From NCBI GenBank assembly GCA_002456975.1, contig NTKA01000011.1:1-43475 (forward strand): 43,475 nt of DNA. The letters run 5' to 3'. How positions within the stretch are numbered: position 1 is the stretch's first letter; each line of letters begins with the position of its first letter. Of the stretch, positions 40,749-43,475 are shown piece by piece. The notes beneath the pieces are model-generated. The model was not told the origin of the DNA. It worked only from the letters and a program-made list of their open reading frames with translations, and did not search any database. The stretch comes from Halieaceae bacterium MED-G27 (GTDB taxonomy: Bacteria > Pseudomonadota > Gammaproteobacteria > Pseudomonadales > Halieaceae). Both the position numbers and the translations under genes were made by a program.

Positions 40749-41432
40749 CTAGCTCTTAGTGTAAAGAAGGTCCCAAACCCCATGACCCAGCCGCTGACCT
40801 CGCCGTTCAAATTTGGTCTCAGGCCGCCAGCGCGGTTTACTCGAATACTTACCTGCGCCAGCATCATTCGCCATTGTAGCGTTAGCCTCTAAGACTTCGA
40901 GCATATGCTCTGCGTAGGGCTGCCAATCAGTGGCAAGATGAAGCTGCCCGCCCGGCCTCAGCCTATCCGACAGCAGACTAACAAACTCGGGCTGAATCAA
41001 GCGGCGCTTATGGTGTCGTTTCTTGTGCCAAGGATCAGGAAAATAGATCTGAATACGATCCAGCGACCCGTTTGAGATGACTTGCTCAAGCACTTCAACC
41101 GCATCTTCTGCATAGACTTTCAGGTTATCGAGTCCTAGCCGGTCAATCTCGCTCAGTAGCCTACCGACGCCCGGTCGGTGAACCTCAATACCGACAAATG
41201 CGGCTGTGGTATCGGCTCTAGCCATGGTCGCAAGGCTATCGCCCATACCAAAACCAATCTCCAAAATGCGTTGTCGACCAACCCCAAATTCACGGGACCA
41301 AGCGAGGCTACCATCGCCTAGGCTAAGGCCATAGCGCGAAAACTGTGTTTCCCAAGCTTTATGCTGGGAGTCAGTCATTCGACCACCCCGCAAAACAAAA
41401 CTTTTGATGCGTTGTTGCTCGAGTGAGGTCAT
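40749..41432 (-). CDS. trmB: tRNA (guanine-N7)-methyltransferase
   Basis: A 227-residue SAM-dependent enzyme forming m7G46 in tRNA. ILEIGFGMGDSLATMA is motif I near 73-88. FVGIEVHRPGVGRLL, RIQIYFPDPWHKKRHHKRRLIQPEFV and LHLATDWQPYAEHM are TrmB signatures. The ATG overlaps the upstream DUF423 stop by 4 bases (ATGA). It is convergent with hemW, with 9 bases between the stops. Confidence 0.96.
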   Translation of the reverse strand: MTSLEQQRIKSFVLRGGRMTDSQHKAWETQFSRYGLSLGDGSLAWSREFGVGRQRILEIGFGMGDSLATMARADTTAAFVGIEVHRPGVGRLLSEIDRLGLDNLKVYAEDAVEVLEQVISNGSLDRIQIYFPDPWHKKRHHKRRLIQPEFVSLLSDRLRPGGQLHLATDWQPYAEHMLEVLEANATMANDAGAGKYSSKPRWRPETKFERRGQRLGHGVWDLLYTKS

Positions 41433-41824
41433 GGTCTAGATTCTAATACCGCTTGCGACAAGCCCCTTGCGAGCGAGAGCCACCCTGCGATCAACAAGAC
41501 GCCCCCGATGGGTGTTATTGCACCCAAGACCGCCGTATCTGTGAGTACCAATAGATACAAACTGCCTGAAAAAATCGCAGTACCCGCCAAAAACAACCAA
41601 CAGCTTCGACGATGCCATAACGTGTTCATCTCTTGCGCACCGAGACTTACTACGAGTAGCACCACCGCGTGAGCTAAGTGATAGTCCACGGCGGTGGACC
41701 AAGTATCCAGCCGAGAAGCCGCCACCATGCTGGCCAACGCATGCTCACCGAAGGCGCCCAGAACGACAGCGGCCGCTCCCAAGAGAGCGGCCGCTATTGC
41801 AAACCCATTATTCACAGAACCCAA
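41429..41824 (-). CDS. DUF423 membrane protein
   Basis: A small inner-membrane protein of 131 residues with four hydrophobic segments and the family feature GAFGEHAL near residue 25. Function unknown. The start is either a TTG at 41824, abutting the rpoH stop, or a GTG at 41815 that has GGG at better spacing. Codons near the start form an 11-bp perfect hairpin (41769-41796). It overlaps trmB and follows rpoH, suggesting one transcript rpoH-DUF423-trmB. Confidence 0.88.
   Translation of the reverse strand: MGSVNNGFAIAAALLGAAAVVLGAFGEHALASMVAASRLDTWSTAVDYHLAHAVVLLVVSLGAQEMNTLWHRRSCWLFLAGTAIFSGSLYLLVLTDTAVLGAITPIGGVLLIAGWLSLARGLSQAVLESRP
41769..41796. repeat. 11-bp GC-rich inverted repeat just downstream of rpoH
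   Basis: AGCGGCCGCTC (41769-41779) and GAGCGGCCGCT (41786-41796) form a perfect stem with a 6-base loop inside the DUF423 coding start, 29 bases past the rpoH stop. There is no U-run, so it is not a standard terminator. It could slow 3' decay or reduce read-through. Confidence 0.6.
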
Positions 41825-42706
41825 CTACTCGACAGTCATTCCAGAGCGCAGTTTGCGCATTGCATTGGCTTCCAATTGGCGAATTCGCTCTGCGGACACG
41901 CCGTACTCTGCAGCAAGCTCGTGCAAGGTAGCCTTTGGCTCAGTCAGCCAGCGACGGCTGACGATGTCGCGGCTGCGCTCGTCGAGATCGTCGAGTGCCG
42001 TCGCCAGCAATGCCGTTTCGTGGGTCGACGTATCGAGACTTTCTACCGCAGATTCTGGATTCGCCGACAAGTCTTCTAAGTAATGTTGCGGCGCTTGCCA
42101 TGCAGTGTCTTCGTCAGCGTCTGAGGGCATATCAAAGGCGACGTCTCTGCCAGCCAAGCGACCTTCCATACGCGTCACTTCGTGAGCATCAACACCCAAC
42201 TCATTGGCAATGGCCAATGTTTCTTCTTCAGTCAGCCAGCTAGTCGACGTTTTATGGCTACGCAGATTAAAGAAAAGCTTTCGCTGCGCCTTAGTGGTCG
42301 CCACCTTGACGATACGCCAGTTCTTCAGGATGTACTCGTGCATTTCGGCTTTGATCCAATGCACTGCGAAGGATACGAGGCGCACCCCCTTATTAGGATC
42401 GAAACGCTTTACTGCCTTCATCAAGCCGACATTGCCTTCCTGAATGAGGTCGGCCTCTGCCAAACCGTATCCGGAGTAGGTTCGCGCTACATGAACAACG
42501 AACCTGAGATGTGCTAGCACCAACTCTCGAGCGGAGTCGACACAATTGTCATAAAACAGCTTCTCGGCGAGCTCTAGCTCCCGCTCCTGCGACAGCATCG
42601 GTATTGCACCCACAGTTTGCACGTAGGCGCTTAAATTGGCACCCGGTGCCATTGTCAGCACCGCGCTGGGTGAGATAGCAACTGCTGTAGTAGCAGACTC
42701 TGTCAT
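41825..42706 (-). CDS. rpoH: RNA polymerase sigma-32 factor (heat shock)
   Basis: Sigma-32 of 293 residues, which directs RNA polymerase to heat-shock promoters. Region 2 includes LVLAHLRFVVHVARTYSGYGLAEADLIQEGNVGLMKA. The RpoH box QRKLFFNLRS lies near residue 141. Region 4.2 (KATLHELAAEYGVSAERIRQLEANAMRKL) closes the protein. AAGGAG lies about 7 bases before the ATG. A perfect CIRCE element lies 29-55 bases upstream, and a small hairpin may pair the ribosome site. It follows ftsX, as in E. coli and Pseudomonas. Confidence 0.97.
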   Translation of the reverse strand: MTESATTAVAISPSAVLTMAPGANLSAYVQTVGAIPMLSQERELELAEKLFYDNCVDSARELVLAHLRFVVHVARTYSGYGLAEADLIQEGNVGLMKAVKRFDPNKGVRLVSFAVHWIKAEMHEYILKNWRIVKVATTKAQRKLFFNLRSHKTSTSWLTEEETLAIANELGVDAHEVTRMEGRLAGRDVAFDMPSDADEDTAWQAPQHYLEDLSANPESAVESLDTSTHETALLATALDDLDERSRDIVSRRWLTEPKATLHELAAEYGVSAERIRQLEANAMRKLRSGMTVE

Positions 42707-42710
42707 AATA

Positions 42711-42724
42711 AAACTCCTTTTACG
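42711..42724 (-). promoter_or_regulatory. Possible hairpin over the rpoH ribosome site
   Basis: On the minus strand CTCC-GTAAAA-GGAG can fold with the GGAG of the Shine-Dalgarno in the stem. Only 4 bp are strong, so this is a suggestion. RNA thermometers control rpoH translation in other bacteria. Confidence 0.3.
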
Positions 42725-42734
42725 GAGACGTAGT

Positions 42735-42761
42735 TTAGCACTCGTGACCTTAGAGTGCTAA
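42735..42761. promoter_or_regulatory. CIRCE element (HrcA operator) upstream of rpoH
   Basis: TTAGCACTC (42735-42743), a 9-base spacer, and GAGTGCTAA (42753-42761) match the CIRCE consensus perfectly on both arms and in spacing. HrcA binds CIRCE and represses groESL and dnaK operons. Here it overlaps the likely rpoH promoter: on the minus strand TTAGCA and TAAACT could serve as weak -35 and -10 with 18-base spacing. Confidence 0.93.
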
Positions 42762-42786
42762 TTCGCTGCGGAGTTCAGTTGTTTTG

Positions 42787-43475
42787 CTAGCGCGGCTGTA
42801 TTTTTGTGAGATGCACCGAGACACTAACGAAGGCGCTCAACCAGCCAATAGCAGCCCCCGCACCACTCAGCAAAATCGCGAGCTCAGGGCTCAATCCAAG
42901 GCTCAATCCAAGGCTCAAAGGCTTACGATCATACAGTTCAAAAAGCCCTTCAGTTGCTGGAGCGATCGATGAACCAATCAACAAAACAACAACGCAACTC
43001 ACCAAACCACCCAGCGCCCCAAGCCACAGGCCTGAATACAAAAAAGGCCGTCTGGCAAAGCGATCACCCCCACCAATTAGCTTTATTACGATGATCTCAT
43101 CGCGCCTTGCTTCAATGCTGAGACGCAGGGTATTCCCTAGGACAAAAATCACGCCTAAGGCCAATAACACCCCGATTGACTGAACGGTGACTTGGCCAGC
43201 TTCGAGCGACGCTTCCAGGCGCTTTAACCAGCGACTATCAACCACGGCTTCAGCTACGCCACTACTTTTTTCGAGATCCTGTGCCAGTGCCTCTATGCCT
43301 GCTTGCCTGACATTAGGTGCTGGATAAACCCACAAGGTATGAGGTAAAGGATTGTTTGTTAACGAATCCATCAGCTGGGTTAAGCCGGTAGCCTCAACGA
43401 ATTCCAACAGCGCGTCATCTCGAGGTTTTAACTCGACTGTGGAAATACCCGGTTTTCGCTCTATCTGAGACAGTA
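42787..43475 (-). CDS. ftsX: Cell division protein FtsX (partial, N-terminus outside window)
   Basis: The C-terminal 229 residues of FtsX, the ABC-type permease that with FtsE controls peptidoglycan hydrolases at the septum. The frame continues open to the window end (43475), so the true start lies outside; the TTG at 43407 is internal. Membrane helices lie around LLALGVIFVLGNTLRLS, PFLYSGLWLGALGGLVSCVVVLLIG and the C-terminal AILLSGAGAAIGWLSAFVSVSVHL. RRDEIIVIKLIGGGDRFARRPF is the diagnostic cytoplasmic FtsX segment. An internal LSLGLSLGLS stretch is encoded by a 12-bp repeat. Confidence 0.93.
   Translation of the reverse strand, partial: LSQIERKPGISTVELKPRDDALLEFVEATGLTQLMDSLTNNPLPHTLWVYPAPNVRQAGIEALAQDLEKSSGVAEAVVDSRWLKRLEASLEAGQVTVQSIGVLLALGVIFVLGNTLRLSIEARRDEIIVIKLIGGGDRFARRPFLYSGLWLGALGGLVSCVVVLLIGSSIAPATEGLFELYDRKPLSLGLSLGLSPELAILLSGAGAAIGWLSAFVSVSVHLTKIQPR
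42888..42918. repeat. 12-bp tandem repeat inside ftsX
   Basis: GGCTCAATCCAA is repeated twice exactly with a partial third copy. In frame it encodes repeated LSLG/LGLS residues in a loop near the last periplasmic region of FtsX. The unit length keeps the frame whatever the copy number. Confidence 0.8.

Follow-up and report, generated by a model that had tools for sequence, protein, structure and literature searches.

The rpoH gene, which encodes the heat-shock sigma factor sigma-32, is likely to be controlled in this bacterium by a composite site, in which a sigma-E promoter is overlaid by an operator of the repressor HrcA and which would feed a loop between GroEL and sigma-32. The reading is built on the sequence and its comparison with relatives. 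The CIRCE element in front of rpoH is a predicted operator that is real and conserved and that probably works, and the promoter beneath it, whose -10 element lies within the operator, is probably of the sigma-E type. GroEL would then act on the rpoH gene via HrcA, the promoter concerned would be one driven by the envelope-stress sigma factor, and three stress circuits would meet in approximately 40 bases of DNA. GroEL sensing would also extend to the sigma-32 targets grpE and dnaK, both of which are without CIRCE in the same genome.

The predicted operator and the genes around it

The features of the window, that is, of the whole stretch of 43,475 nucleotides that was analysed, are collected in Table 1. 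According to the first-pass annotation, both 9-base arms and the 9-base spacer of a dyad before rpoH matched the CIRCE consensus. The arms do so throughout, and the spacer has the expected length of 9 bases; CIRCE spacers have no fixed consensus sequence, and length alone is comparable. The distance given there, 29-55 bases 5' of the rpoH ATG, was the same when measured. The operator is the sole match in the whole window when three mismatches are allowed, and 100 dinucleotide shuffles of the window yielded a mean of 0.02 matches, with a match in 2 of the 100. The annotation had further proposed to search the genome for CIRCE and for hrcA. The former search (≤ 3 mismatches) gave two sites, at rpoH and groESL, both perfect, and the reversed pattern gave no match in the same genome. 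The assembly (2.02 Mb) is 75% complete, so a further CIRCE site may be missing. The latter search gave one full-length hrcA of 344 aa (TIGR00331, 313.2 bits against a cut-off of 197.2, residues 8-341), whose product also matches PF01628 and which is followed by grpE and then dnaK.

Table 1. Positions of the predicted control elements and genes in the window, and of sigma-32-type sites in the hrcA locus (L001)
Feature	Position	Strand	Remarks
trmB-like methyltransferase gene	40749..41432	minus	PF02390; overlaps the end of the DUF423 gene
DUF423 protein gene	41429..41824	minus	PF04241; directly 3' of rpoH
rpoH, sigma-32, 293 aa	41825..42706	minus	TIGR02392, 384.7 bits (cut-off 323.1)
Shine-Dalgarno-like AAGGAG	42714..42719	minus	7 bases 5' of the rpoH ATG; sequence inspection
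Predicted CIRCE operator, TTAGCACTC-N9-GAGTGCTAA	42735..42761	not applicable	0 mismatches in 18 arm bases
Sigma-E-like -10, TCTAA	42750..42754	minus	16 bases past the -35, inside CIRCE
Sigma-E-like -35, TGAACTC	42771..42777	minus	2 mismatches to GGAACTT; position conserved in relatives
ftsX, 3' part, continuing beyond the window end	42787..43475	minus	TIGR00439, E 2.7e-58, 197.5 bits (below the cut-off of 255; gene cut by the window end)
Sigma-32-type sites	L001 2260-2285 and 2893-2918		hrcA-grpE gap and grpE-dnaK gap

The identity of rpoH is given by TIGR02392, an equivalog model whose cut-off was exceeded, and its translation contains the region C motif QRKLFFNLR, which we take to be a mark of RpoH. 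The ATG lies 80 bases from the ftsX stop, and the minus-strand order of ftsX stop, TGAACTC, 16 bases, TCTAA, leader, AAGGAG and rpoH ATG fits this gap. Judging by adjacency, the DUF423 gene is probably on the same transcript as rpoH, and the trmB-like gene probably is as well. As the three genes lie end to end (40749-42706, minus strand), trmB may share the stress-controlled promoter.

Conservation of the predicted operator and its association with hrcA

The annotation had suggested aligning the DNA upstream of rpoH from relatives, and the dyad proved to be conserved in the genus, among the named loci and in the class. The genus set consisted of 36 relatives; an rpoH match reaching the start was found in 31 of them (29 as loci; G020 and G012 by coordinates), and the remaining five gave no rpoH match. 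All 32 same-genus genomes with a located rpoH start, our own included, carry a perfect CIRCE at rpoH, and the spacer varies among these relatives while the arms stay perfect. Of the 37 genomes of the genus, again with our own included, 34 have a detected hrcA. The named set comprised 80 loci, the nearest of which belong to Halieaceae and Luminiphilus; one locus was excluded because its upstream DNA was too short. CIRCE with at most one mismatch stands at rpoH in 72 of the 79 named loci with sufficient upstream DNA. When two mismatches were allowed in a slightly different search stretch, the number rose to 74, and five loci were still without CIRCE (three Marinobacterium, one Nitrincola and one Pseudoteredinibacter). 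As to the neighbouring genes, a trmB match was seen beside rpoH at 30/30 genus-set and 75/80 named loci, and a DUF423 match at 18/30 and 66/80, respectively.

The class was sampled with 133 genomes, one per family, in which rpoH (E ≤ 1e-60) was found in 121, CIRCE (≤ 1 mismatch) in 96 and hrcA in 96. CIRCE (≤ 1 mismatch) lies within 300 bases of rpoH in 72 of the 88 genomes that hold both hrcA and rpoH; the arrangement is thus widespread and not peculiar to our genome. The corresponding figure for rpoH-bearing genomes without detected hrcA is 5 of 33 (odds ratio 25, Fisher p 1.7e-11, uncorrected for descent). All 121 rpoH upstream stretches were also scanned with up to three mismatches, in a set that leaves out our own genome and in which one genome (G087) was entered twice; CIRCE was found in 81 of the 88 hrcA-positive rows, leaving seven without it, and in 6 of the 33 others. 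The class sample holds at least 198 CIRCE sites; among the matches listed, rpoH accounts for 78, the vicinity of hrcA for 27 and other places for 93, and one genome (G158) has at least one site beyond the 198. Short protein motifs left 26 of 121 CIRCE loci unlabelled, so the 93 sites elsewhere are not all established as groESL sites. Within the order, CIRCE (≤ 2 mismatches) was found at rpoH in six of the six sampled hrcA-positive families other than our own, and 13 of the 15 families without detected hrcA were also without CIRCE; the other two, G052 and G038, have it with one and two mismatches, respectively.

In G052 (contig C34, locus L473), an order relative with a 96% complete assembly, no hrcA was detected and the 1-mismatch CIRCE precedes rpoH; either hrcA was missed, or the operator outlived its repressor. 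Tandem CIRCE pairs stand before rpoH in G065 (contig C61, 202567 and 202599, the second with one mismatch) and in G106 (locus L229, the second with three mismatches). G087 has two rpoH genes, of which the copy on contig C325 has CIRCE (≤ 1 mismatch) and the copy on C289 has a best match with eight mismatches.

The candidate sigma-E promoter and competing explanations

The plausible promoter that the annotation had seen overlapping the dyad can be specified in part: a match of the sigma-E type overlaps the dyad, and a search of 42650-42950 for sigma-70-type sites gave none. The candidate -10 is formed by the last two left-arm bases and the first three spacer bases of CIRCE, and as TCTAA at 16 bases it fits the pattern TCTRA at 15-16 bases. 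The -35 is weak and shares five of seven bases with GGAACTT.

Comparison of many sites, aligned on CIRCE, revealed a GGAACTTTT-like box just upstream of it. Boxes were scored as GGAACTT with at most one mismatch, 7-10 bases before CIRCE, in site sets that overlap one another. Such a -35 stands before the rpoH CIRCE in 56 of the 73 distinct named sites; the genus set has it at 9 of 20 sites and the class set at 15 of 38, and none of the 36 groES CIRCE controls (10 from genus and order, 26 from the class) has it. Ten of the 20 genus sites have a -35 with two mismatches. In the complete class set, a good -35 accompanies 42 of 87 CIRCE rows, at a distance of 9 bases in 32, 10 in nine and 8 in one, and the other 4-base bins around CIRCE hold 0-4 matches each; 45 rows have no -35 at ≤ 1 mismatch. 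At this distance, a sigma-E -10 would span the junction of the left arm with the spacer. TCTRA occupies the expected place at 40/73 named, 2/20 genus and 20/87 class sites and at 0/36 groES controls, and the spacer begins with T at 72/73 named and 60/87 class sites versus 14/36 groES controls.

The sigma factor itself is encoded in the genome, where the rpoE product scores 282.4 bits with TIGR02939 (cut-off 236.15) and rpoE is preceded by GGAACTT-N16-TCTCA, with one mismatch in the -10. A strict scan of 30 rpoE loci found GGAACTT-N16-TCTGA exactly in five, a weaker match in two and none in 23. Bare sigma-E boxes at rpoH were found in 2 of 34 class rows without CIRCE (reverse-strand control, 0) and in three of the 15 order families in which hrcA was not detected. 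Exact composites of -35 and CIRCE number three in 397 genomes of the phylum, with one preceding a clpB-like gene and not rpoH; the strict pattern misses the site of the window itself and says little about spread. The clpB-like gene, named from its translation, lies in G123 (locus L471, composite GAACTT-CIRCE at about position 1500), and the rpoH of this genome has no recognisable CIRCE (best match, six mismatches).

HrcA might instead repress an rpoH promoter of another kind, either a housekeeping one or read-through from ftsEX, with the GAACTC box incidental or decayed. The 5/7 match of the -35 and the degenerate boxes of many relatives speak for this explanation, and a promoter may lie farther upstream, within ftsX. 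We nevertheless hold it to be rather unlikely, given the lack of a sigma-70-type site in the stretch searched, the presence of rpoE in the genome and a GGAACTT box that keeps a fixed distance at 56/73 and 42/87 rpoH sites and is absent from all groES sites scored. Another proposal would place the function of the inverted repeat in the rpoH mRNA and not in the DNA: it would form a hairpin, stabilise the message or serve as an RNA thermometer. A transcription start farther upstream would bring the repeat into the transcript; a CIRCE at groESL of Rhodobacter capsulatus reportedly, by the title of a paper, stabilises the 5' end of the mRNA, and E. coli rpoH carries an RNA thermosensor. The arm letters, however, are conserved beyond what pairing needs and equal those of the groESL operator, and the predicted start falls within the repeat. 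The leader from 42745 folds slightly better than its shuffles (z -1.54; 16 of 200 shuffles equal), and an RNA thermometer was rejected on this weak fold. A role in the mRNA is accordingly regarded as very improbable.

The rpoH CIRCE could also be a functionless relic, as it is kept in six class rows and two order families in which hrcA was not detected; unfinished assemblies may hide hrcA there. Arms that stay perfect in all 32 genus genomes with a located rpoH start despite a varying spacer, the presence of CIRCE tracking that of hrcA, and the lack of CIRCE in 13 of the 15 order families without detected hrcA leave this explanation with hardly any credence. The sigma-E promoter overlaid by an HrcA operator is retained as the preferred reading.

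Proposed circuit and comparison with known systems

Sites of the sigma-32 type were sought with the pattern CTTGAAA-N11/16-CCCCAT, taken from the accessible portion of PMC545781. In our genome, groESL has CTTGAAA-N13-CCCCAA (one mismatch) directly after its CIRCE; CTTGAAA-N13-CCCCAT is exact in eight of nine other groESL loci, and no sigma-32-type site was found at groESL of an order relative (L035). Between hrcA and grpE, CTTGAAA-N13-CCCCAT occurs without mismatch, a placement that assumes that grpE starts at a downstream Met and not at TTG, and a site with one mismatch lies upstream of dnaK; neither gene has CIRCE. Control of hrcA by sigma-32 or by CIRCE was rejected for this locus: nothing with ≤ 3 mismatches to the sigma-32 pattern precedes hrcA (the best has four), and no CIRCE was found with ≤ 5 mismatches. 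Upstream DNA of hrcA was compared in 14 of 30 loci, the anchor motif being missing in the other 16, and one of these 14 (L321) has a sigma-32-like site with three mismatches before hrcA. As the sigma-32-type sites lie downstream of hrcA, before grpE and dnaK, hrcA itself may escape sigma-32 control here.

In the circuit that we propose, the RpoE promoter (TGAACTC, 16 bases, TCTAA) would drive rpoH, and CIRCE would cover its -10 and the expected start point. In unstressed cells, GroEL would keep HrcA folded, and HrcA on the operator would exclude RNA polymerase. Once unfolded protein occupied GroEL, HrcA would leave the operator; envelope damage would release sigma-E, and rpoH would then be transcribed. 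Sigma-32 would then activate groESL, with its CIRCE beside the sigma-32-type site, as well as grpE and dnaK. HrcA would also repress groESL, and newly made GroEL would restore HrcA and close the loop. In our genome, the DnaK arm would come under HrcA solely via rpoH. Two stress sensors may thus jointly decide the heat-shock response. For this organism, we infer binding by HrcA, transcription by sigma-E, the position of the start and control of HrcA by GroEL, the last from reports on other bacteria: in the accessible portions of the sources, GroEL supports HrcA in Caulobacter (PMC8119881), and GroE modulates HrcA in B. subtilis and Chlamydia (PMC9959188). The idea of the annotation that HrcA represses rpoH is strengthened by the presence of hrcA and the conserved dyad; the arrangement is common in the class, and the sigma-E input had gone unnoticed.

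A perfect CIRCE at position -51 of rpoH was predicted for Geobacter sulfurreducens in 2004 (Rodionov et al., PMC545781, Table 8), and CIRCE at rpoH as such is therefore not new. The two cases are alike in being perfect sites and computed predictions. Unlike our genome, this delta-proteobacterium has CIRCE also at hrcA-grpE-dnaKJ, and a sigma-E element at its rpoH is not mentioned in the accessible portion of that paper. As far as the accessible portions of the literature naming both reach, CIRCE at rpoH was found only there; those of PMC10696704, PMC3989490, PMC8762339, PMC3557214, PMC2758279, PMC13171946, PMC6238624 and PMC9959188 hold no mention of it, and PMC9866376 mentions neither HrcA nor CIRCE. 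A sigma-E promoter overlapped by CIRCE was not found described in the literature searched, which was accessible in part and has most subscription journals outside its coverage, nor in the accessible portions of PMC1978210, PMC8119881, PMC11764788, PMC2215328 and PMC4577112. The sigma-E element nested in CIRCE, the constancy of its geometry and the association with hrcA measured across the class seem to be new.

The operator need not confer strong heat control, as stated for groESL of M. loti in the accessible portion of PMC3989490; the title of the Rhodobacter capsulatus paper points the same way. With the known HrcA/CIRCE regulon (groESL and hrcA-grpE-dnaK-dnaJ), our genome shares an identical operator, the presence of hrcA and a groESL with CIRCE; here the second target is rpoH, and the hrcA locus is without CIRCE. 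In some groups, rpoH is entered as a target of HrcA in regulon databases. With respect to sigma-32 promoters, the pattern is matched at groESL, grpE and dnaK, and is absent before hrcA (≤ 3 mismatches).

In the textbook model of E. coli, chaperone feedback on sigma-32 works at the protein level. An hrcA match was found in 7 of 14 control genomes, E. coli not among them, and no CIRCE lies upstream of rpoH in E. coli MG1655 (best match, eight mismatches). The same upstream DNA contains TGAACTT-N16-TCTGA, presumably rpoH P3, with its -10 ending 93 bases before the ATG; set against TGAACTC-N16-TCTAA in the window, it is a similar sigma-E-type promoter. By the accessible portions of the sources, rpoHP3 (rpoHP3-lacZ) is sigma-E-regulated in E. 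coli (PMC2215328), and rpoH is among the sigma-E ChIP-seq sites of Salmonella (PMC4577112). Opinion can be evenly divided on whether the CIRCE-nested sigma-E promoter was the ancestral rpoH promoter of Gammaproteobacteria, one site reading both envelope stress and GroEL load, with the E. coli P3 as a remnant after hrcA loss. The rarity of bare sigma-E boxes in class rows without CIRCE weakens this history of the E. coli promoter and leaves the composite itself unaffected. As the arrangement occurs in many families, E. coli, which is without hrcA, may be a simplified case.
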